Source of the DNA: Flavobacteriaceae bacterium
Lineage (GTDB): Bacteria; Bacteroidota; Bacteroidia; Flavobacteriales; Flavobacteriaceae
Direction of reading: 5' to 3'
Length of the DNA: 64,000 bases
NCBI GenBank assembly: GCA_020346245.1
Contig: CP070778.1
Coordinates: 2,931,763-2,995,762 of the forward strand
Every line of letters begins with the position of its first letter. The stretch's first letter is position 1. A program made the translations under genes and the position numbers. Below the pieces are notes generated by a model that was not told the DNA's origin, made no database searches, and saw only the letters and a program-made list of their open reading frames with translations. Below are positions 45,482 to 61,436 of the stretch, in pieces.

Positions 45482-46033
45482 TTAAGCATTGGGGTTCCTT
45501 TCTCTAAACCTCTTATACAATCGTATCCCCAGCATAAGAAGAATGCCGAGGACGATAAGACCCAATACACCAAAAATCCAGTTGAAGGTGCCCTTCAATA
45601 TTACCAGAAATGTAACGGCAAACAGAATTACAGTGGCGCCTTCATTCCAAATTCGCATAAAATTGGAAGAATACTTTATTTCGTCGCGCTGTAACTGAAG
45701 ATAAATCATATGTGTTTTCATATGATAAACAATGAGCAATACTACGAATACCAATTTAATAAGCATCCAAGGCTGTTCTAACCAACCGGGTATTAACAGT
45801 AGCAACCAGATTGCAAAAACCGTACATAAAACCGCTGAAGGCCATGTAATTATATACCATAACCGCTTTGTCATTAGTTTAAGTTGGTTAGATAGTATTT
45901 CTTTATCAGGAGAAGGCTTGTCTGCTGCTTCAATATGGTAAATGAACAATCTTGGTATATAAAATAATCCCGCAAACCATGTCACTACAAAGATTAGATG
46001 CAGTGCTTTAATATAATTATAGTATTCTTCCAT
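45482..46033 (-). CDS. hemJ: Protoporphyrinogen IX oxidase HemJ (CopD-like)
   Basis: The 183-residue protein has four to five hydrophobic helices and opens with KALHLIFVVTWFAGLFYIPRLF-type sequence characteristic of HemJ, with His12 as a candidate haem ligand. It oxidises protoporphyrinogen IX to protoporphyrin IX, the step before ferrochelatase, which is also in this window at 60405. General annotation may call it CopD family. Its start overlaps the stop of the beta-propeller gene (TAATG at 46033), so it is coupled to it. Confidence 0.88.
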   Translation of the reverse strand: MEEYYNYIKALHLIFVVTWFAGLFYIPRLFIYHIEAADKPSPDKEILSNQLKLMTKRLWYIITWPSAVLCTVFAIWLLLLIPGWLEQPWMLIKLVFVVLLIVYHMKTHMIYLQLQRDEIKYSSNFMRIWNEGATVILFAVTFLVILKGTFNWIFGVLGLIVLGILLMLGIRLYKRFRERNPNA

Positions 46034-49000
46034 TATTTCTCATATCTAATTGCTCCAATACCTGCTTCCCACAGTTTTTTATTAAAATCTGGCAGTTCTT
46101 TTTCTAAAAATTCATTCCCTTGCATTTTTAATCGTTCCCATTCTTTATCCAATTCATTTTTACGAACCCTGGATGAGGTATTCACCCTTGGTATTGCACT
46201 ATTGGTTTGGTCTTTTAGAAACAGGTACTCCGCGGTAAATTTATTTGGAAAATTTTCTACATCGTCATACGCCCTGGATTTACGCTGTATCATATCCTCA
46301 TCCCATTGGTTCAATCTATTATAAAGGGCTATCCCTGCCTTTTTAAGATCATTATCTTCCAGGTCCCTAATGATGTCCTTAAGTTGTGTCCTGGCATTAT
46401 AAAGTGTATTCACCATCAGGTGCATTTGGGTAATATTTTCCTCCAATTCCGTCATAAATGCATCGTAGGCATCATACTGTCCCGGTTTGGTTTCAAAACC
46501 TGGTGTTTCCAGAATATTTGCCGTTGTACTAATTGTTTTATCTCCCATCCGTAACTTTAAAGTATATGTTCCTGGTGGCGCCATATGCCCTCTAAAGTTA
46601 GCTTCGATATAGGTGTCAGGGATACCCGGAATTATTGGATAAAGCATGTCCCATACAAATCTGTTTAAGCCTTCGTCCATGGAAAGAACAGGTGCCGGAG
46701 GTGGGCCGCCACCTTCATGTTTTTTATAATTTGGGTCTTTTTCGGAACTAAACTTGCGAATAAGCTTACCCTCCTCGTTAAGTATTTCCAACATAATTTC
46801 TTCAGTAGGAGCAGTCTTAGGTAATTCATAATACAGTACAACTCCGTTAGCAGGGTTGACACCGTAAAATGGATTAGTTCCTTTAAAAGTAGTTGAATTC
46901 ATATTTAAAGGGCTATCCCAGGATCCATTATATGCATCCTCGGGCTTCATTATTCCAAAATTGCTATTCTGATTCCTGTATTGGGCAAGTGCCCCGAGGT
47001 CATCTAAAATCCAAAAAGATCTTCCCGAAGTAGCTACAATTAAATCGCCCTGGTGTACCATTAAATCAGTAATAGGCGTCACAGGTAAATTAAGCTGAAA
47101 AGGTTCCCATGAAACCCCTCCATTCCAGGAAATATAAATTCCTTTTTCCGTTCCTGCGTAGAGAAGGTTTTTGCGTGAAACATCTTCCCGAACTACTCTG
47201 GTAAAGGAACCGTAAGGAATTCCTGAACTAATATTTGTCCATGTTTTACCGTAATCCGTGGTCTTGTACAAGGCAGGAGTATAGTCATTGAACTTATAGC
47301 GAGTCGTTGCAATATAGGCAGTTGCCGGGTAATGTGGCGAAACATCAATAGCGTTAATCAAACATTCCCTGAGGCCTTTTGGAGTAACATTTTCCCAGCT
47401 TTCCCCCCCATTCTTTGTTATATGAACAAGACCATCATCACTGCCTGTCCAAAGCACTCCCTTTTCATGTGGCGATTCTATCATATGGGCTATTGTTCCA
47501 TAATTTTCAGCACCAACTGCCTCAACGGTATATGGCCCGCCTCCTTTACCTTGTTTTTCATCCATATTGCGGGTTAAATCGGGAGAAATTTCCTCCCAGT
47601 TAAGCCCTTTATCCCTCGTTCGCAATACCAATTGGGCACAATGATAATAAGTGTCGGGTTCATGTTGCGATCTTATTATTGGCGCACTCCAGTTGTAAAG
47701 GTATTTCATATCCCTCGCAGCTCTTCCCAAATATTGAATGGGGGCTGCCATAATTTTTGTTTCAGACCTGGTCTGCATATCAAGTATTTCAATAGTCCCA
47801 AGGTAATTGCCTCCCATAACATACCTTGGATTATCAGGGTCAAATGCAAGAAAAGCACTTTCACCACCTGCGGCATAGGTCCAATCTCTTTCCGTGATGC
47901 CCTCTCGCCCTAACGAAAGACTTGCAATTTTTACAGAGGAATTATCTTGTTGTCCCCCATAGACATTATAGGGAAAAAGCCTATCGGCATTTATTCGGTA
48001 AAACTGAGCAGTAGGCATTATATCCTGAGTAGACCATGTTTTACCACTATTATAGGTGATGGCGGCGCCACCATCGTTAGCTATAACCATGTTTTTTGAA
48101 TTGTCCGGATTTATCCACAGATCATGGTAATCCCCATGAGTACCGGTTATCACTTCCCACGTTTGTCCCCCATCAATAGATCGGTAGGTGGAAGCGCTTA
48201 AGACATACACTGTATTTTCATCATTAGGATCTGGAAACACCTCAATATAATACCAGGCGCGTTGCACTAATCTATTATCACCACTTACCATGGTCCAGGT
48301 AATACCTGCATTATCAGAAACAAACAACCCTCCCTTATCCTGATCAGAATCACTTTCAATCAAGGCATAGACTTTATCAGAATTGGCCGGACTTACGGCA
48401 ATAGCCATCTTGCCCTTTTCTTCTGGTAGTCCTTCGCCTATTTCAAACCAATTTTCTCCCCCATCAACAGATTTATAAAGTCCGCTTCCGGAGCCCCCGC
48501 TAATAACTATATGCGGTTTCCTTTGATGGTGCCACATTGCGGCATAAAGCACCCCGGGTGTATTGGGATCCATTGAAAGTTCTGAACATCCGGTAAGTGT
48601 ATTTACAAATAAAACTTGCTCCCAGCTTTCCCCGCCATCAACAGATTTATAGATTCCGCGTTCTTCATTCGGGGCATATAATGCTCCCTGAGCTGCCACA
48701 TAAACGATATCCGGATTTTTAGGGTGAATAACAATTCGCGAGATATGTTGTGTTTTGCTTAACCCCAGTTTTTTCCAGGTTTTCCCGGCATCTGTAGACT
48801 TATAAACGCCATCACCATAGGAGGTCATAACTCCTCGTGGTGCGTGCTCTCCCATTCCACAGTAAACAACATTGGGGTCCGAGGGTGAAACAGCAACTGC
48901 GCCCACTGAGCCTGTCTGAAAAAACCCATCCGATATATTTTCCCATCGTTGGCCGGCATCGCAAGTTTTCCACAGACCCCCTCCTGTAGTTCCCATATAA

Positions 49001-49164
49001 TAGGTTAATGGATCTCCAATGACGCCAGTAGCGGTTACCGATCTGCCGCCTCGAAAAGGGCCGATATTCCGATATTTAAGAGGTTTAAAATAAGTTTCCG
49101 CATCCTGGGCAAAACCCAGACTTATGGATAATACAAAAACAAACAGTACATAAAGATCTTTCAT
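46033..49164 (-). CDS. Sortilin/VPS10-type BNR-repeat beta-propeller protein (paralogue A)
   Basis: The 1043-residue secreted protein has a signal peptide (about 19 residues), then two beta-propeller regions with repeated sialidase/BNR motifs (SxDxGxxW, such as [31 protein letters not shown]), and a C-terminal region of about 350 residues without repeats. It belongs to the family often labelled as glycosyl hydrolase (VPS10/sortilin-like), but no catalytic motif is proven. A second copy lies just upstream (28-base gap), and its stop overlaps the hemJ start. Confidence 0.9.
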
Positions 49165-49191: not shown

Positions 49192-52100
49192 TTATTCTTC
49201 GATAAATAAGTAATTCAGCTTTAAATCGTTAAAAGCCTCGTTAAATTCCTTGATTTCTTTATCAACCATAGTATTAAAATTGACCAATTGCGCATTGATC
49301 TTTGTGGTCAATTCATTTTTTACAGCAATGTCCTGATCTGTTGGTGGAAAATCATCCATGGAGACTAAACGATTCAGATGTGCCAGCTTATTGGTCAGTC
49401 GAATTGGAAAATTCAAAGGATCTTGACTGCTACGGTTTTTAGTTTGATATAATGCTTTTTCAATCTCTTCGAAACCCTTTTTCATTTCCCTGGCTTTCTC
49501 CACCAAATCGTTCGTTGTGGAATTACCTTTATACTGTTCAATGAAGGTATTTAAGCGGGATGTAATTTTGCGTATCTTTTCTATAGATTTATGTGCCTTG
49601 TCTACTGTTGAATTTATATCGCTTATAAAATTATATTGTTTTTGCATATCCGCTAATGAAACTTCAGCTCTAGGATCCGGTAAAATAGCAAACGTTTCGG
49701 AGATACTCGTTCCATTTCTGTTCAAATAAACTTTGTAAGTGCCCGGAACGGCCTTGGCCCCATCAAGGTTGGCCGACCATAAAATCATCCCCTCCAATTT
49801 TTCTGCTCCTTCGCCCTTAGTATCCCAGACATGGATATTTCCTCCATTTTGGACTTCCAACTTAGCTTCTTTTTTGTCGCTATAAGTAGTAAAATTAGCA
49901 AGTGTGTCACCAGACATAGACATGTATGTTAGTGCAATACTATCTTTCTTGTCCCATTCTTTTAGGTAAAACTGAGTCATTACTCCGGCCGGATGGTTTT
50001 GTCCTTCTGTTTTTGAAGGTTCACTAGCTGCCAGGCCTTTAGTCCTGTATGCATCTTTGGGTTTAAAAAGTATTGTAGCCGCATTTTTATTGGCACTATT
50101 AAGCTGATGCAAGACAGTAAGGTCATCAATAATCCATAAACTGCGCCCCTGGGTTGCCACAATAAGTTTATCATCTTTAATACTAAGATCGGTTATGGGA
50201 ACAATGGGCAAATTAAGTTGAAAAGCCTGCCAGCTTTGCCCATCATTAAAGCTTATATACATTCCGGTCTCTGTCCCTGCATATAGGAGACCTTTTCTTT
50301 TTGGGTCCTCGCGAAGAACTCGTGTAAAGTGTTCATCGTTTATACCGTTCGTTATTTTTTTCCAGGTTTTACCAAAATCACTGGTTTTGTACAAGTATGG
50401 TTTAAAGTCGCCCAATTTGTAGCGCGTTGCTGCTACATAGCAGGTGCCTTCATCAAAAGCAGAAGGTTCAATACTGTTTATCATGTTCCACTCCGGCATG
50501 TTTGCAGGTGTTACATTCTCCCACCTTTCTCCTCCATTTTTCGAAACATGTATAAGTCCGTCATCACTTCCAACCCAGAGTAAACCTTCCTTAAGCGGAC
50601 TTTCATTGGCCGCAAAAATGGTACAATAATACTCAACACCGGTGTTGTCCTGTGTAATTGGCCCTCCACTCGAAACTAGTTTTGACGGTTCATTTCTGGT
50701 TAAATCTTCACTCAATAGTTTCCAGCTTTGGCCCTCATTTTCACTTAGATGTACGTGATTGGAAAAAGTGTATAATTTTTTTGGATCATGTTTGCTGAAA
50801 ATGATAGGAAAATTCCATTGAAAACGGTATTTCATTCCCTCCGCACCATATCCCATAGGGTTATCGGGCCATACATTAACCGCCCTAGTGGTCCCGGTCT
50901 TATGATTTACTCTTGTTAAAAAGCCTCCATAGCTGCCACCATAAACAATGTCATTATCTAAAGGATCTATAGCAATATGAGCCGATTCTCCTCCAGCTGT
51001 TTCTTCCCAATCATCCTCACTAATGCTGTTGCCATCACTCCGATGTTTAATACGGATTGTTGAATTATCCTGCTGGGCAGCATATATTCGAAATGGAAAA
51101 TCATTGTCTGTCGTTACCCTGTAAAACTGAGCTGTGGGTTGATTGTAATAGGTGCTCCATGTATCACCCCCATCATAAGAAATCTGAGCTCCTCCATCAT
51201 CTCCAATAATCATCCGCTTTGAATTTTCTGGTGCTATCCACAAATCGTGATGGTCCCCATGAGGAGCATTAAATGTCTTAAAAGACTTCCCTCCGTCTGT
51301 AGATTTATGGTAACGCACATTTAAAACATAAATAACATCTTCATCCTCAGTATCAGCATATAGTCTTGTGTAATACCACGCTCTTTGTCTTAACTTTCTT
51401 TCGCTATTAACCTGTGTCCATTTTTTACCCCCGTCTTCACTCCGGTAAAGACCTCCTTTTTCCTTTTGTTCAACAATTGCCCAGACGCGTTCAGAATTTT
51501 TAGGTGATACTGTTACACCTATTATTCCTAGAGTATCCTTTGGAAACCCTTCATTTTTTGAAATTTCATTCCATGTTTCCCCGCTATCGGTGCTTTTCCA
51601 TAGAGCAGAGCCTTCTCCCCCGCTGCTCAGACTATACGGCGTCCTTTTTGCTCTCCATGTAGAAGCATATAATATACGTGGGTTGTTGGGATCCATGATA
51701 AGGTCAACTGCGCCAGCCTGATCATTTACAAAAAGCGTTTTGCGCCAGGTGGCACCTCCATCTGTACTCTTATAAATGCCTCGATCCGGAGTTGGTTTAT
51801 AAATATTCCCCAATACAGCCGCATAAACTATATCCGGGTTTTCCGGATGTATACGAATACGCGGTACATGCCTGCTTTTCTGAAGACCAATCGACTTCCA
51901 GGTTTTGCCAGCGTCCACTGTTTTCCAGATACCATAGCCAGAAGATACATTCCCCCGCAAAGTTTTTTCACCCCCACCTACATAAATTACATTTGGATCA
52001 CTTTTTGCAACTTCTACAGCACCAATACTGCCTCCAAAAAATCCATCTGAGATATTTTCCCAACTCCTGCCGCCATCAACTGTTTTCCAAACACCTCCTC

Positions 52101-52329
52101 CGGTAGCACCAAAATAGAACAGATTAGGTTCTTGCGGCACTCCGGTGACAGCTGCTGAACGTCCGCCTCGAAAAGGGCCCACTAATCTATATTCAAGGCT
52201 TGAATATAATGCTTCAGGGTATTCAAATTGTGTATTGGAAGTAACTCGTTTTTTTTGAGCATTTGTAAGAGAGACTAATGATAAAGCAGCCAAAACTAAA
52301 AGGCATGCCTTAGCAGTAATGAATTTCAT
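49192..52329 (-). CDS. Sortilin/VPS10-type BNR-repeat beta-propeller protein (paralogue B)
   Basis: The 1045-residue secreted protein is a tandem paralogue of the gene at 46033, with signal peptide (MKFITAKACLLVLAALSLVSLTNAQ), the same start [19 protein letters not shown], the same BNR motifs and the same GSDDGLIHVSKNGGERWENVTP centre. The C-terminal region is helical. It is probably the first gene of a long minus-strand run down to 41577. A remnant of a third copy lies at 56482. Function is unproven; secretion and a binding or hydrolytic role are suggested by the family. Confidence 0.9.
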   Translation of the reverse strand: MKFITAKACLLVLAALSLVSLTNAQKKRVTSNTQFEYPEALYSSLEYRLVGPFRGGRSAAVTGVPQEPNLFYFGATGGGVWKTVDGGRSWENISDGFFGGSIGAVEVAKSDPNVIYVGGGEKTLRGNVSSGYGIWKTVDAGKTWKSIGLQKSRHVPRIRIHPENPDIVYAAVLGNIYKPTPDRGIYKSTDGGATWRKTLFVNDQAGAVDLIMDPNNPRILYASTWRAKRTPYSLSSGGEGSALWKSTDSGETWNEISKNEGFPKDTLGIIGVTVSPKNSERVWAIVEQKEKGGLYRSEDGGKKWTQVNSERKLRQRAWYYTRLYADTEDEDVIYVLNVRYHKSTDGGKSFKTFNAPHGDHHDLWIAPENSKRMIIGDDGGAQISYDGGDTWSTYYNQPTAQFYRVTTDNDFPFRIYAAQQDNSTIRIKHRSDGNSISEDDWEETAGGESAHIAIDPLDNDIVYGGSYGGFLTRVNHKTGTTRAVNVWPDNPMGYGAEGMKYRFQWNFPIIFSKHDPKKLYTFSNHVHLSENEGQSWKLLSEDLTRNEPSKLVSSGGPITQDNTGVEYYCTIFAANESPLKEGLLWVGSDDGLIHVSKNGGERWENVTPANMPEWNMINSIEPSAFDEGTCYVAATRYKLGDFKPYLYKTSDFGKTWKKITNGINDEHFTRVLREDPKRKGLLYAGTETGMYISFNDGQSWQAFQLNLPIVPITDLSIKDDKLIVATQGRSLWIIDDLTVLHQLNSANKNAATILFKPKDAYRTKGLAASEPSKTEGQNHPAGVMTQFYLKEWDKKDSIALTYMSMSGDTLANFTTYSDKKEAKLEVQNGGNIHVWDTKGEGAEKLEGMILWSANLDGAKAVPGTYKVYLNRNGTSISETFAILPDPRAEVSLADMQKQYNFISDINSTVDKAHKSIEKIRKITSRLNTFIEQYKGNSTTNDLVEKAREMKKGFEEIEKALYQTKNRSSQDPLNFPIRLTNKLAHLNRLVSMDDFPPTDQDIAVKNELTTKINAQLVNFNTMVDKEIKEFNEAFNDLKLNYLFIEE

Positions 52330-55083: not shown

Positions 55084-56418
55084 TTACTCATTGGAGGCAT
55101 ACTTCTTCATTTCGGTAGTCACATAAATTAATGCCTGTTCCCAAGCCTTTCCTATCCTTTCTGTGAATAATTCTCCTAGTTCTTCCTTAATTGTTTCTTT
55201 AAGGGATTCTAATACTACCGGATAATGCTCTTCCATCACCCCATATCTAGCATGACTTTTACCAAGCGATTTTAACCCTAATTCTAAATATTCTGGCCTG
55301 CTCATAGAGTAAACAATGCCTCCTAACATATGCGTTAAAAGTCTGCCCTGGGACTGCATATTATTTTTAAATAGCTCTCTGGTTTGAGGGGATTTTGTAA
55401 ATACTTTATTGTAAAATTTCTCTGCAAACTCATCTTCATTTCTTAGCAAATAATCCAAGGAATTCTGTAGTTCTAGTTGAATATCCATTTCTTTAAAACC
55501 AATTAACTCATATAGTATGGTTTCGTGCTCATGCCCTTTCATTTGGTTACTGTATTTTTTCCCAAGGTTTAAGGTGTTTTTAGGAAATCCTTTATGAACA
55601 GATTCAGAAATTAAAAGATTAGTTCCTGCTTGCCTGTTGAAACCTTGTATCCTACTGGCAGTATTTATAGGGTCACCAACTACTGCAAATTGCTTATGTT
55701 TGGGATGTCCTAAATGCCCTACAAATGCTCTGCCAAAGTTAATTCCAATACCCATTTTAATTTCTGTATCAAAATCAATAAGTTCCAAACGATTAAGCCT
55801 TTCAATTGCATATTGCATGCCCAGAGCGGCACGTACTGCATCTTTACAATTCTTATTTTGCATACCTCCTGAAACCCCGAATAGTCCTATAATTTCATCT
55901 CCTACATACTGATATATAACACCATTATTAATCAAAATGGGATCGCCTAATACAGTATAAAACCGATTTAATATATACGCTGTATCAAATGTTTTGTTCT
56001 CAGAGGCGATTTTGGTGAAACCTCTAATATCACAAAATAAGATGGCAATAGCTCTTTCTTCTGCTGTTCCTTCAGGCAAAGTTTCTAATTGAAGTTTATT
56101 AATTTCAGTGCTATTCCATACTAACCTTTGAATTGTAATATCATCTTTTACATAACATTGGCATGCCAATCTTATAGAAGGATCCCACTTTCGTAATTGA
56201 GCAGTTTCCTTTTCCATTCTAGTTCTTGGAGTTATGTTTTGGAGACCCTCCAAAATTCTAACGCGGCATGTAGTGCATTGTCCACTTCCTCCACATTCAT
56301 GCATGTGTGGTATCTGATTTATTATTGAACAGTCCAATAGTGTAGCATCTGGATCTTTAAATTCCACTTTTTGATTAATCCCACTATAAGTTACTATTGG
56401 TTCTTTTACTTGTGGCAT
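55084..56418 (-). CDS. [2Fe-2S] ferredoxin - class III nucleotide cyclase - globin fusion protein
   Basis: The 444-residue cytoplasmic protein has three domains. A ferredoxin domain (about 5-105) carries the cluster cysteines Cys42-x5-Cys48-x2-Cys51 and Cys86 (or 88). A class III adenylate/guanylate cyclase domain (about 120-305) has metal Asp130 (LFCDIRGF), Asp174 (YVGDEI) and the catalytic Asn252 and Arg256 (GDPINTASRI). A globin domain (about 315-440) has B10 Tyr336, CD1 Phe350 and proximal His389 (GKSHARYG), aligned to flavohaemoglobin-type globins. It should make cAMP or cGMP under control of redox state and a haem ligand. Ala at the position before VVGD leaves the nucleotide specificity open. 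It stands alone. Confidence 0.9.
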   Translation of the reverse strand: MPQVKEPIVTYSGINQKVEFKDPDATLLDCSIINQIPHMHECGGSGQCTTCRVRILEGLQNITPRTRMEKETAQLRKWDPSIRLACQCYVKDDITIQRLVWNSTEINKLQLETLPEGTAEERAIAILFCDIRGFTKIASENKTFDTAYILNRFYTVLGDPILINNGVIYQYVGDEIIGLFGVSGGMQNKNCKDAVRAALGMQYAIERLNRLELIDFDTEIKMGIGINFGRAFVGHLGHPKHKQFAVVGDPINTASRIQGFNRQAGTNLLISESVHKGFPKNTLNLGKKYSNQMKGHEHETILYELIGFKEMDIQLELQNSLDYLLRNEDEFAEKFYNKVFTKSPQTRELFKNNMQSQGRLLTHMLGGIVYSMSRPEYLELGLKSLGKSHARYGVMEEHYPVVLESLKETIKEELGELFTERIGKAWEQALIYVTTEMKKYASNE

Positions 56419-56481: not shown

Positions 56482-56871
56482 AATGAATCTTATACATTCT
56501 ACTTTGGAGCCAGTAATGGCTTGTGGAAAATAGAAGATGCGGGGACCTACTGAGAGCCCGTAGGCGATGCCTACTTCAAATCCGGAAACATAGGGGCCAT
56601 GGAATTCTCCCAATCTAATTCTAATATTGCTTATGTGGGTATGGGAGAGCCCCAAATGTGGATTAACGTTAGTTGGGCTGACGGAGTATATCCAGATGAT
56701 GATATAAATAAAATGCAAGAGCCTAAGGAACTGATCACCAAAAGCCCTGAAAGAATCAGTATGCTTAAATATTTAATCCGAGAATACAGTTGGAAACATT
56801 TTTATAGTGGAGGACTCGCCCAAGGAATCGATTCAATGATTCCAAAACTGGAAGCCGAAATATATAGGTAA
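56482..56871 (+). pseudogene. Decayed fragment of a third sortilin/BNR beta-propeller gene joined to another tail
   Basis: In one frame, the sequence TFYFGASNGLWKIEDAGTY, a TGA at 56551-56553, then EPVGDAYFKSGNIGAMEFS...IAYVGMGE aligns with the N-terminal propeller of the genes at 46033 and 49192 ([18 protein letters not shown]...W...GSVGAVAVS...VVYCGMGE). The TGA falls exactly where the intact copies have Trp, so TGG became TGA. After ADGVYPDDD the match stops, and a different 50-residue tail (ERISMLKYLIREYSWKHF...) follows, so a deletion joined two genes. No start codon of the original gene remains. Confidence 0.7.
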
Positions 56872-60404: not shown

Positions 60405-61436
60405 TTATATAGGTAAGGCCTCACTTTTGTGCCAATTGTTTATCCATTCCGCCATTAAAGCCACCCAGGAACTACTCTCGTTTAAACAGGGTATATGAAT
60501 ATAATCTTCTCCCCCGGCCTCAATAAATTGCTCTTTGCCCTCCATTGCAATTTCTTCAAGCGTTTCCAGGCAATCACTTACAAAAGCAGGTGTAACCACG
60601 GCAAGCCTCTTAATTCCTTCTTTAGCCAGACGTTCAAACTCAAAATCTGTATAAGGCTTTAACCATGGATCTCCCGCAAGACGCGATTGAAATGAGGAAC
60701 TCACTTTATGTTCGTCCAGATTTAGCTCCGCTTTTACCAATTCCGTAGTATCATAGCACTGATGTCGATAACATGTATGGTGTGCAACTGAGTTTGTCTG
60801 GCAACAACTCCCATCTATTTTGCAATGAAATTTAGTTGGGTCTGACTTTCTGATATGCCGTTCCGGAATTCCATGGTAGGAAAATAAGATATGATCATAT
60901 TCAAAGTCTTTTAATCTGCCGGAAATTCTCTCTGAAAGAACTCTAATATAATTCGCATTCTTATAAAATGCAGGTAAGGTTGTAATTTTTATATCAGGAT
61001 AATTAGCCTGCTGTTCCTGCATAGTTTTAACAACAACTGTCTCATAGGAAGACATGGCATAGTGAGGGTAAAGGGGTACCAATAATATTTCACTCACTCC
61101 CTTATCCTCTAATTCCTGTAAGGCATTCTTTATGCTCATTGAACCATAGCGCATCCCCAGGGCAACAGGCAGGTCTGTTTGCTGTTGAACTTTAGATGCA
61201 AAGCGTTCCGATATTACAATTAAAGGAGAGCCTTCTTCCCACCAAATCTTTGCATAAGCCTTTGCAGATTTCTTAGGGCGGGTTTGAAGGATAATTCCGC
61301 GAACAATTAAATTGCGCAACCAATTTGGAACGTCAATGACGCGCTCATCCATTAAAAACTCGTCCAAATATGGTTTTACTTCTTTAGCCGTTGGACCATC
61401 GGGAGATCCTAAATTAACTAACAATACACCCTTCAT
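60405..61436 (-). CDS. hemH: Ferrochelatase
   Basis: The 343-residue enzyme inserts Fe2+ into protoporphyrin IX, the last step of haem synthesis. The family signature SYHGIPERHIRKSD contains catalytic His188; the conserved Glu lies in the SDCLETLEEIAMEG segment near residue 290. A cysteine-rich stretch (CKIDGSCC...CYRHQCYDT) near residue 204-225 is longer in cysteines than usual. HemJ (45482) supplies its substrate. A -7 box TATTTTTG lies about 35 bases before the start. The MATE gene follows. Confidence 0.96.
   Translation of the reverse strand: MKGVLLVNLGSPDGPTAKEVKPYLDEFLMDERVIDVPNWLRNLIVRGIILQTRPKKSAKAYAKIWWEEGSPLIVISERFASKVQQQTDLPVALGMRYGSMSIKNALQELEDKGVSEILLVPLYPHYAMSSYETVVVKTMQEQQANYPDIKITTLPAFYKNANYIRVLSERISGRLKDFEYDHILFSYHGIPERHIRKSDPTKFHCKIDGSCCQTNSVAHHTCYRHQCYDTTELVKAELNLDEHKVSSSFQSRLAGDPWLKPYTDFEFERLAKEGIKRLAVVTPAFVSDCLETLEEIAMEGKEQFIEAGGEDYIHIPCLNESSSWVALMAEWINNWHKSEALPI

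Follow-up and report, generated by a model that had tools for sequence, protein, structure and literature searches.

A ferredoxin-cyclase-globin fusion protein of Flavobacteriaceae, a relative of the ferredoxin-coupled class III cyclases and candidate redox and gas sensor

Can one protein chain bring both a redox centre and a haem-bound gas to bear on a cyclic-nucleotide signal? The question is raised by a single open reading frame (ORF) in a stretch of 64,000 nucleotides (hereafter the window) from contig CP070778.1 of a Flavobacteriaceae bacterium, the genome of which is 3.05 Mb in size and 81% complete. A sequence-only reading of the window had proposed that this ORF carries a [2Fe-2S] ferredoxin, a class III nucleotide cyclase and a globin in this order, and that redox state and a gas such as O2 or NO jointly tune its output. 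The features of the gene and of its predicted product, herein referred to as FCG (ferredoxin-cyclase-globin protein), are as follows.

55084..56418, minus strand: FCG gene (444 aa), with an ATG start and no internal stop
56146..56388, minus strand: Fer2 [2Fe-2S] ferredoxin domain, residues 11-91 (Pfam PF00111, E 1.1e-10); ligands Cys42, Cys48, Cys51 and Cys86 with C-x5-C-x2-C spacing, invariant in 20/20 rows (see below)
55510..56055, minus strand: class III nucleotide cyclase domain, residues 122-303 (Pfam PF00211 Guanylate_cyc, E 1.2e-15); metal Asp130/Asp174, catalytic Asn252/Arg256, base-setting Gln170 and Ala245
55111..55419, minus strand: globin domain, residues 334-436 (Pfam PF00042, E 4e-12); Tyr336 (B10), Phe350 (CD1), Gln357 (E7), Leu361 (E11), proximal His389 (F8) and Tyr399

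Domain make-up and distribution of FCG

By a Pfam scan of the window protein, Fer2, Guanylate_cyc and Globin were all identified above the gathering cut-off, and the sequence matches in PDB agreed, with 2w01 for the cyclase (9.4e-19), 3s1i for the globin (3.3e-16) and 1i7h for the ferredoxin (4.4e-6), so that the proposed three domains and their order in one ORF were borne out. Entry 2w01 is an adenylate cyclase by its PDB listing and is, as we take it, the guanylyl cyclase Cya2; the 1i7h ferredoxin is presumably that of E. coli. The strand, left unnamed by the sequence-only reading, is minus; the plus-strand reading of 55084-56418 contains stops throughout. No hydrophobic segment was detected in FCG by hydropathy scan, and the chain opens with the Fer2 domain. 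FCG is 99% identical to a protein of Eudoraea adriatica DSM 19308 (Flavobacteriaceae).

A census of 397 Flavobacteriaceae genomes gave 17 matches at E 1e-35, of which 15 are full length, distributed in 12 of 237 genera, and the other two are ferredoxin-cyclases without the globin. The survey of 395 Bacteroidota genomes gave 75 matches at 1e-20, mostly through the cyclase alone, and only three of full length, from the window genome, one more member of Flavobacteriaceae, and a genome of another class (G340). The last is the sole match at 1e-35 in its class (1/244 genomes), and such a lone distant carrier would fit transfer or loss. Seven FCG loci were found in named records (one in Eudoraea, three in Mangrovimonas, one in Robertkochia, and a MAG with two copies) by a scan that matched short exact peptides and reaches close relatives only. 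The two copies of the MAG (L036 and L040), 95.3% identical, both lie on contig CAJXYJ010000002.1, about 22 kb from each other. The whole-genome survey covered Bacteroidota, and plasmids and viral contigs were also searched, the latter giving no FCG relative among the contigs searched; restriction of FCG to Bacteroidota is not claimed.

Altogether 24 full-length rows were collected, and after removal of four that repeat the contig of another row, 20 distinct rows from 19 genomes were left: 15 from the family census, four from named records only, and G340. The comparison set included 14 other ferredoxin-cyclases, after four repeated two-domain rows had been removed. Pfam matches to Fer2, Guanylate_cyc and Globin were present in all 20 distinct rows, with identity from 99 to 38%. 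The orthologues are 439-490 aa long and form a single open frame down to 38% identity; the stops flagged inside the matches of three rows (L048, L049 and L054) are located at the C-terminal end, and these ORFs are whole (441 aa). Pairwise dN/dS ranged between 0 and 0.21 in the ferredoxin, cyclase and globin domains wherever unsaturated (four pairs with the window copy, one extra globin pair, and L036 versus L040, the remainder being saturated), indicating that all three domains are maintained under purifying selection.

An assembly or frameshift artefact that fused separate genes is virtually inconceivable and was rejected; nothing spoke in its favour, and the three domains recur at similar length in 20 full-length rows, whose sources include named isolates, a MAG and genomes of a single contig. 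The one-frame orthologues and the low dN/dS together rule out the frameshift that the sequence-only reading had named as a refutation, and the FCG fusion is real and conserved. For the ferredoxin-cyclase core, a tree of 34 rows was built, with weak joins at depth and some long branches flagged; all 20 fusion rows are gathered on the same side of one branch (support 100/100) with one label change, and a single fusion event suffices on the sampled tree.

Cofactor residues, the cyclase site and the lineage of the globin

The residues named by the sequence-only reading (Cys42, Cys48, Cys51, Asp130, Asp174, Asn252, Arg256, Tyr336, Phe350 and His389) were invariant in 20/20 rows, and so were Cys86, Gln357, Leu361, Tyr392 and Tyr399. 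The fourth cluster ligand had been left as Cys86 or Cys88. Because Cys88 is replaced in four rows, by Ser in L038, by Thr in L006 and L039, and by Ala in L007, the ligand is assigned to Cys86.

The two metal-binding Asp and the catalytic Asn and Arg expected of a class III cyclase are present in all of the FCG rows (20/20). The usual pair of residues that sets the nucleotide base is Lys with Asp, Thr or Ser for ATP, and Glu with Cys for GTP. Position 245 had been taken as the base-setting position on its own, but the pair in FCG is Gln170 (20/20 rows) with Ala (15 rows) or Ser (five rows) at 245, and neither the ATP- nor the GTP-type pair was found in any of the 20 rows. Among the 14 other ferredoxin-cyclases, the first position is occupied by Lys in six, Asp in four, and Asn, Glu, Gln and Ala in one each, and the second by Thr in 10 and Ala in four. 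Mycobacterial Rv0386 also has Gln at the base position. The residue preceding Gly295, as counted by eye, is Lys in two FCG rows (Lys294 of the window copy, and L007), non-basic in the other 18, and Lys or Arg in 14/14 of the other ferredoxin-cyclases; this basic residue (KG motif) is presumably the equivalent of Lys1065 in the mammalian cyclase.

As judged from these alignments, the FCG active site has its metal-binding and transition-state residues intact and its base and phosphate contacts altered. No cyclic-nucleotide product is assigned because of the Gln/Ala(Ser) pair and of the basic residue missing in 18/20 rows. The claim that Ala245 leaves cAMP or cGMP undecided stands in its outcome, but its reasoning was incomplete with respect to the invariant Gln170 and the missing basic residue. 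The cyclase activity of FCG could be low or altered, in view of this missing residue and the unusual pair.

For the C-terminal domain, Globin PF00042 scored 47.1 bits (cut-off 22) versus 18.1 bits for Protoglobin (cut-off 25). On alignment with 3s1i, residues Tyr336, Phe350, Gln357 and Leu361 fall onto its residues 29, 43, 50 and 54, which we take to be B10, CD1, E7 and E11. An AlphaFold2 model of the globin only (mean pLDDT 81.8, pTM 0.76) gave 3s1i, Hell's Gate globin I, as the best Foldseek match (TM 0.84 by query length), and FCG shares with it the fold, the CD1 Phe, the TyrB10/GlnE7/LeuE11 pocket and the proximal His. The model of full-length FCG (pLDDT 47.7, eight alignment rows) is too poor for the domain arrangement or the cluster-haem distance. 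The features of F-type single-domain globins (TyrB10, PheCD1, GlnE7, LeuE11, HisF8 and a 3/3 fold) are all found in the FCG domain; these globins stand alone, whereas that of FCG closes a cyclase chain. FCG gave no Pfam match to the FAD/NAD(P) reductase domains of flavohaemoglobin, the globin stopping at residue 436 of 444.

Judging from these sequence features, the FCG globin is of the flavohaemoglobin/single-domain lineage, placed C-terminally, and is not of the globin-coupled-sensor type. In globin-coupled sensors the globin is N-terminal, and they are not known to contain a ferredoxin. Like FCG, they combine a globin and a signalling output in one chain, but they use a globin of the sensor family. 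An N-terminal globin of Protoglobin type is not found in FCG, Protoglobin being below the cut-off and the domain C-terminal, and the reference of the sequence-only reading to globin-coupled cyclases needs correction on this point. Two families of 3/3 globins, the sensor family being one, are distinguished in passages of PMC7082302.

Ferredoxin-coupled relatives and possible modes of control

The closest characterised relative of FCG is CyaC of Sinorhizobium meliloti. Passages of PMC10463352, citing Wissig 2019, describe CyaC as having two haem B and a ubiquinone-linked, redox-sensitive activity, and a [2Fe-2S] cluster is drawn; for the 6TM-ferredoxin class IIIb adenylate cyclases (cluster 1), a dihaem is predicted in passages of PMC4821796. 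These cyclases and FCG alike unite a [2Fe-2S] domain, a class III cyclase and a haem module in one chain. The Fer2 domain N-terminal to the class III domain is found in FCG; the 6TM dihaem anchor is not, and unlike the CyaC type, FCG is without a membrane anchor and has a C-terminal globin as its haem module. The likeness to CyaC is by published description, the sequence identities (about 26-39% by domain) being those between FCG and plasmid-borne ferredoxin-cyclases of the same plan, and not CyaC itself.

The plasmid search gave 570 records matching FCG, none with 80% query coverage. Twelve plasmid regions were compared, two of them globin-only and 10 carrying ferredoxin-cyclases hand-picked among the 40 matches listed of the 570. 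In seven of these 10 (Alphaproteobacteria, Burkholderia), the protein is extended at the N-terminus by about 270 aa, and five His in this extension are invariant in 7/7 rows. The hydrophobic segments therein numbered 6, 6, 5, 1, 5, 6 and 5 by a simple hydropathy scan, six spans being present in 3/7 only; Pfam Sdh_cyt was sub-threshold in 3/6 scanned (E 0.013 to 0.89) and absent in 3/6, and the Pfam scan of the seventh anchored row (L043) gave no match in the N-terminus. The dihaem reading of the anchored relatives draws on the published descriptions and on the invariant His. The base pair is Lys/Thr in 5/7 anchored plasmid rows versus Gln/Ala(Ser) in FCG. A ferredoxin-cyclase-Rieske fusion was found on the Rhizobium etli 8C-3 plasmid pRsp8C3c (L044:3932-5326; C-terminal Rieske, E 1.2e-9). 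The plasmid ferredoxin-cyclases of Hymenobacter (L042) and Rhizobium gallicum (L087) showed no third domain in Pfam. The two-domain ferredoxin-cyclases of Bacteroidota (five compared) have the same Fer2 and cyclase core as FCG, but are without the globin, 301-319 aa in length, and differ in the base pair (Asp/Ala in four, Glu/Thr in one, versus Gln/Ala(Ser) in FCG).

FCG belongs with the ferredoxin-coupled class III cyclases, and is not a new kind of system. To our knowledge, the globin-coupled adenylate cyclase of Leishmania is without ferredoxin. This cyclase is oxygen-dependent as described in passages of PMC6027212, and globins joined to guanylate cyclases are mentioned in general, with no ferredoxin-cyclase-globin, in passages of PMC3820574. 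In the literature searched on the fusion and its close relatives (titles, abstract openings and some passages), no ferredoxin-cyclase-globin protein was found. Cyclases under the control of a haem-bound gas and those under the control of a redox centre are both known; what appears to be new, as far as the literature searched goes, is the presence of both a ferredoxin and a globin on one cyclase chain.

The reading we prefer, at a probability of about 0.5, is that FCG is a soluble dimeric cyclase set jointly by the haem globin and the [2Fe-2S] cluster, that is, a cytosolic counterpart of CyaC. The globin would bind O2 (or NO) on ferrous haem via the Tyr-B10/Gln-E7/Leu-E11 pocket; electrons would move between haem and cluster, or the cluster would hold the haem ferrous; the oxidation or ligand state would then rearrange the cyclase homodimer, leading to a changed cyclic-nucleotide output; and the nucleotide would pass to putative cNMP-binding proteins, three of which are encoded in the genome. 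The parts are present in the protein, and from them we infer the electron exchange, the identity of the ligand, the direction of control and the product. In favour of this model are the intact domains, the invariant cofactor and catalytic residues, the low dN/dS in each domain, the single origin, the relatives with redox modules, the globin pocket and fold resembling O2-bound 3s1i, and the position of FCG as sole Pfam globin in 12/15 carrier genomes. Against it are the altered cyclase site, the failure of the neighbourhoods to yield a partner (see below), the patchy spans and Sdh_cyt matches of the anchored relatives, and the haem-free two-domain ferredoxin-cyclases.

As to the input, O2 together with redox state is likelier, and NO is less favoured. 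Denitrification genes were scanned in 15 carriers, including the window genome (only 81% complete), and in 30 Flavobacteriaceae non-carriers picked from survey lists without matching for clade. The nosZ propeller was found in 8/15 carriers versus 16/30 non-carriers, and cytochrome d1 in 0/45 genomes. Copper nitrite reductase exceeded the cut-off in 0/15 carriers versus 12/30 non-carriers (Fisher p 0.004, kinship ignored), and at the looser E 0.001, which caught other proteins too, in 2/15 versus 23/30; the contrast may reflect shared ancestry. An NO sensor of denitrifiers thus found no support in these genomes, with nosZ equal, copper nitrite reductase over the cut-off in none of the 15 carriers and cytochrome d1 in none of the 45 genomes. 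The joint redox and gas signalling that the sequence-only reading put forward fits the domains as ordered in the chain, and the kinship with CyaC strengthens it; as its signal, NO found no genomic support.

The main rival, about half as credible as joint control, holds that FCG contains two independent sensors, the cluster reading redox and the globin reading O2 or NO, each acting allosterically with no electron exchange. The cyclase indeed separates the ferredoxin from the globin in the sequence, two-domain ferredoxin-cyclases exist without the haem module, and the Leishmania cyclase (as described in passages of PMC6027212) is globin-coupled and oxygen-dependent, but the recurrence of the core with redox-looking modules (the five-His segment and Rieske) suggests electronic coupling.

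It is rather improbable that the main work of the globin is NO dioxygenation or an O2-dependent redox reaction, with electrons coming from the ferredoxin and with the cyclase as a weak reporter of turnover or a degenerating domain. Such a role is consistent with Tyr-B10, Gln-E7, Leu-E11 and His-F8, which are common to flavohaemoglobins and single-domain globins (the roles of these pocket residues being general knowledge), and with the basic active-site residue absent in 18/20 rows. It also agrees with the globin content of the carriers: in a count that leaves truncated globins outside, FCG is the sole Pfam globin in 12/15 carrier genomes, the remaining three having one or two extra standalone globins and none of flavohaemoglobin size, and among the 30 non-carriers a Pfam globin was found in six, three of which are flavohaemoglobin-sized. 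Globin-domain matches besides the fusion in 296 Bacteroidota genomes were ORFs of 138-196 aa (standalone-globin size) or 403-410 aa (flavohaemoglobin size). Against a mainly enzymatic globin stand the metal Asp, Asn and Arg, invariant in 20/20 rows, the purifying selection on the cyclase, and the lack of association with denitrification genes.

Under joint control, one soluble chain would integrate gas and redox input. The fusion also points to a general role of the ferredoxin-cyclase core as a redox-to-messenger adaptor able to take different electron modules. A bolder form, which we regard as doubtful, is an internally wired gas-to-nucleotide converter, in which O2 or NO chemistry at the globin haem would exchange electrons with the cluster, and the redox state of the two would drive the altered cyclase (Gln/Ala-Ser pair, basic residue missing) to make an unusual cyclic nucleotide or to act with relaxed substrate choice. 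FCG would then be one of a wider class in which exchangeable redox partners (a dihaem anchor, a Rieske or a globin domain) are joined to one ferredoxin-cyclase core. FCG gives a way into the study of cyclic-nucleotide signalling in marine Flavobacteriaceae, and its size suits purification and spectroscopy.

Gene neighbourhood and genome context

The closest clearly coding ORFs on either side of the FCG gene are both on the plus strand, and from this arrangement the gene is probably transcribed alone. No conserved operon partner was found in the 26 regions compared (some genomes being represented twice), and the neighbours agree only among close relatives. The window genome encodes three proteins with a cNMP-binding domain over the cut-off, none adjoining FCG, and as read from their sequences two of them resemble Crp/Fnr regulators and one a response regulator.

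In three related genomes (L073, L074 and L075), an ORF of 465 aa, by its sequence a putative FAD-linked oxidase, is located directly downstream of FCG, and a divergent ORF pair faces FCG, one member resembling by reading a histidine kinase, the other a NarL-type response regulator. This arrangement is not general among the compared regions. An ORF for ferrochelatase (haem synthesis) is located about 4 kb from FCG in the window (60405-61436, minus strand); none of the other regions whose neighbourhoods were compared contains a counterpart of this ORF.

Side by side on the minus strand, the window encodes two large Sortilin-Vps10/BNR-repeat proteins, one of 1043 aa (46033-49164) and one of 1045 aa (49192-52329). 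Directly upstream of FCG, on the plus strand (56485-56712), lies a remnant of Sortilin-Vps10/BNR type, which is interrupted by an in-frame stop and shares 41.6% identity with a section of the 1045-aa protein.
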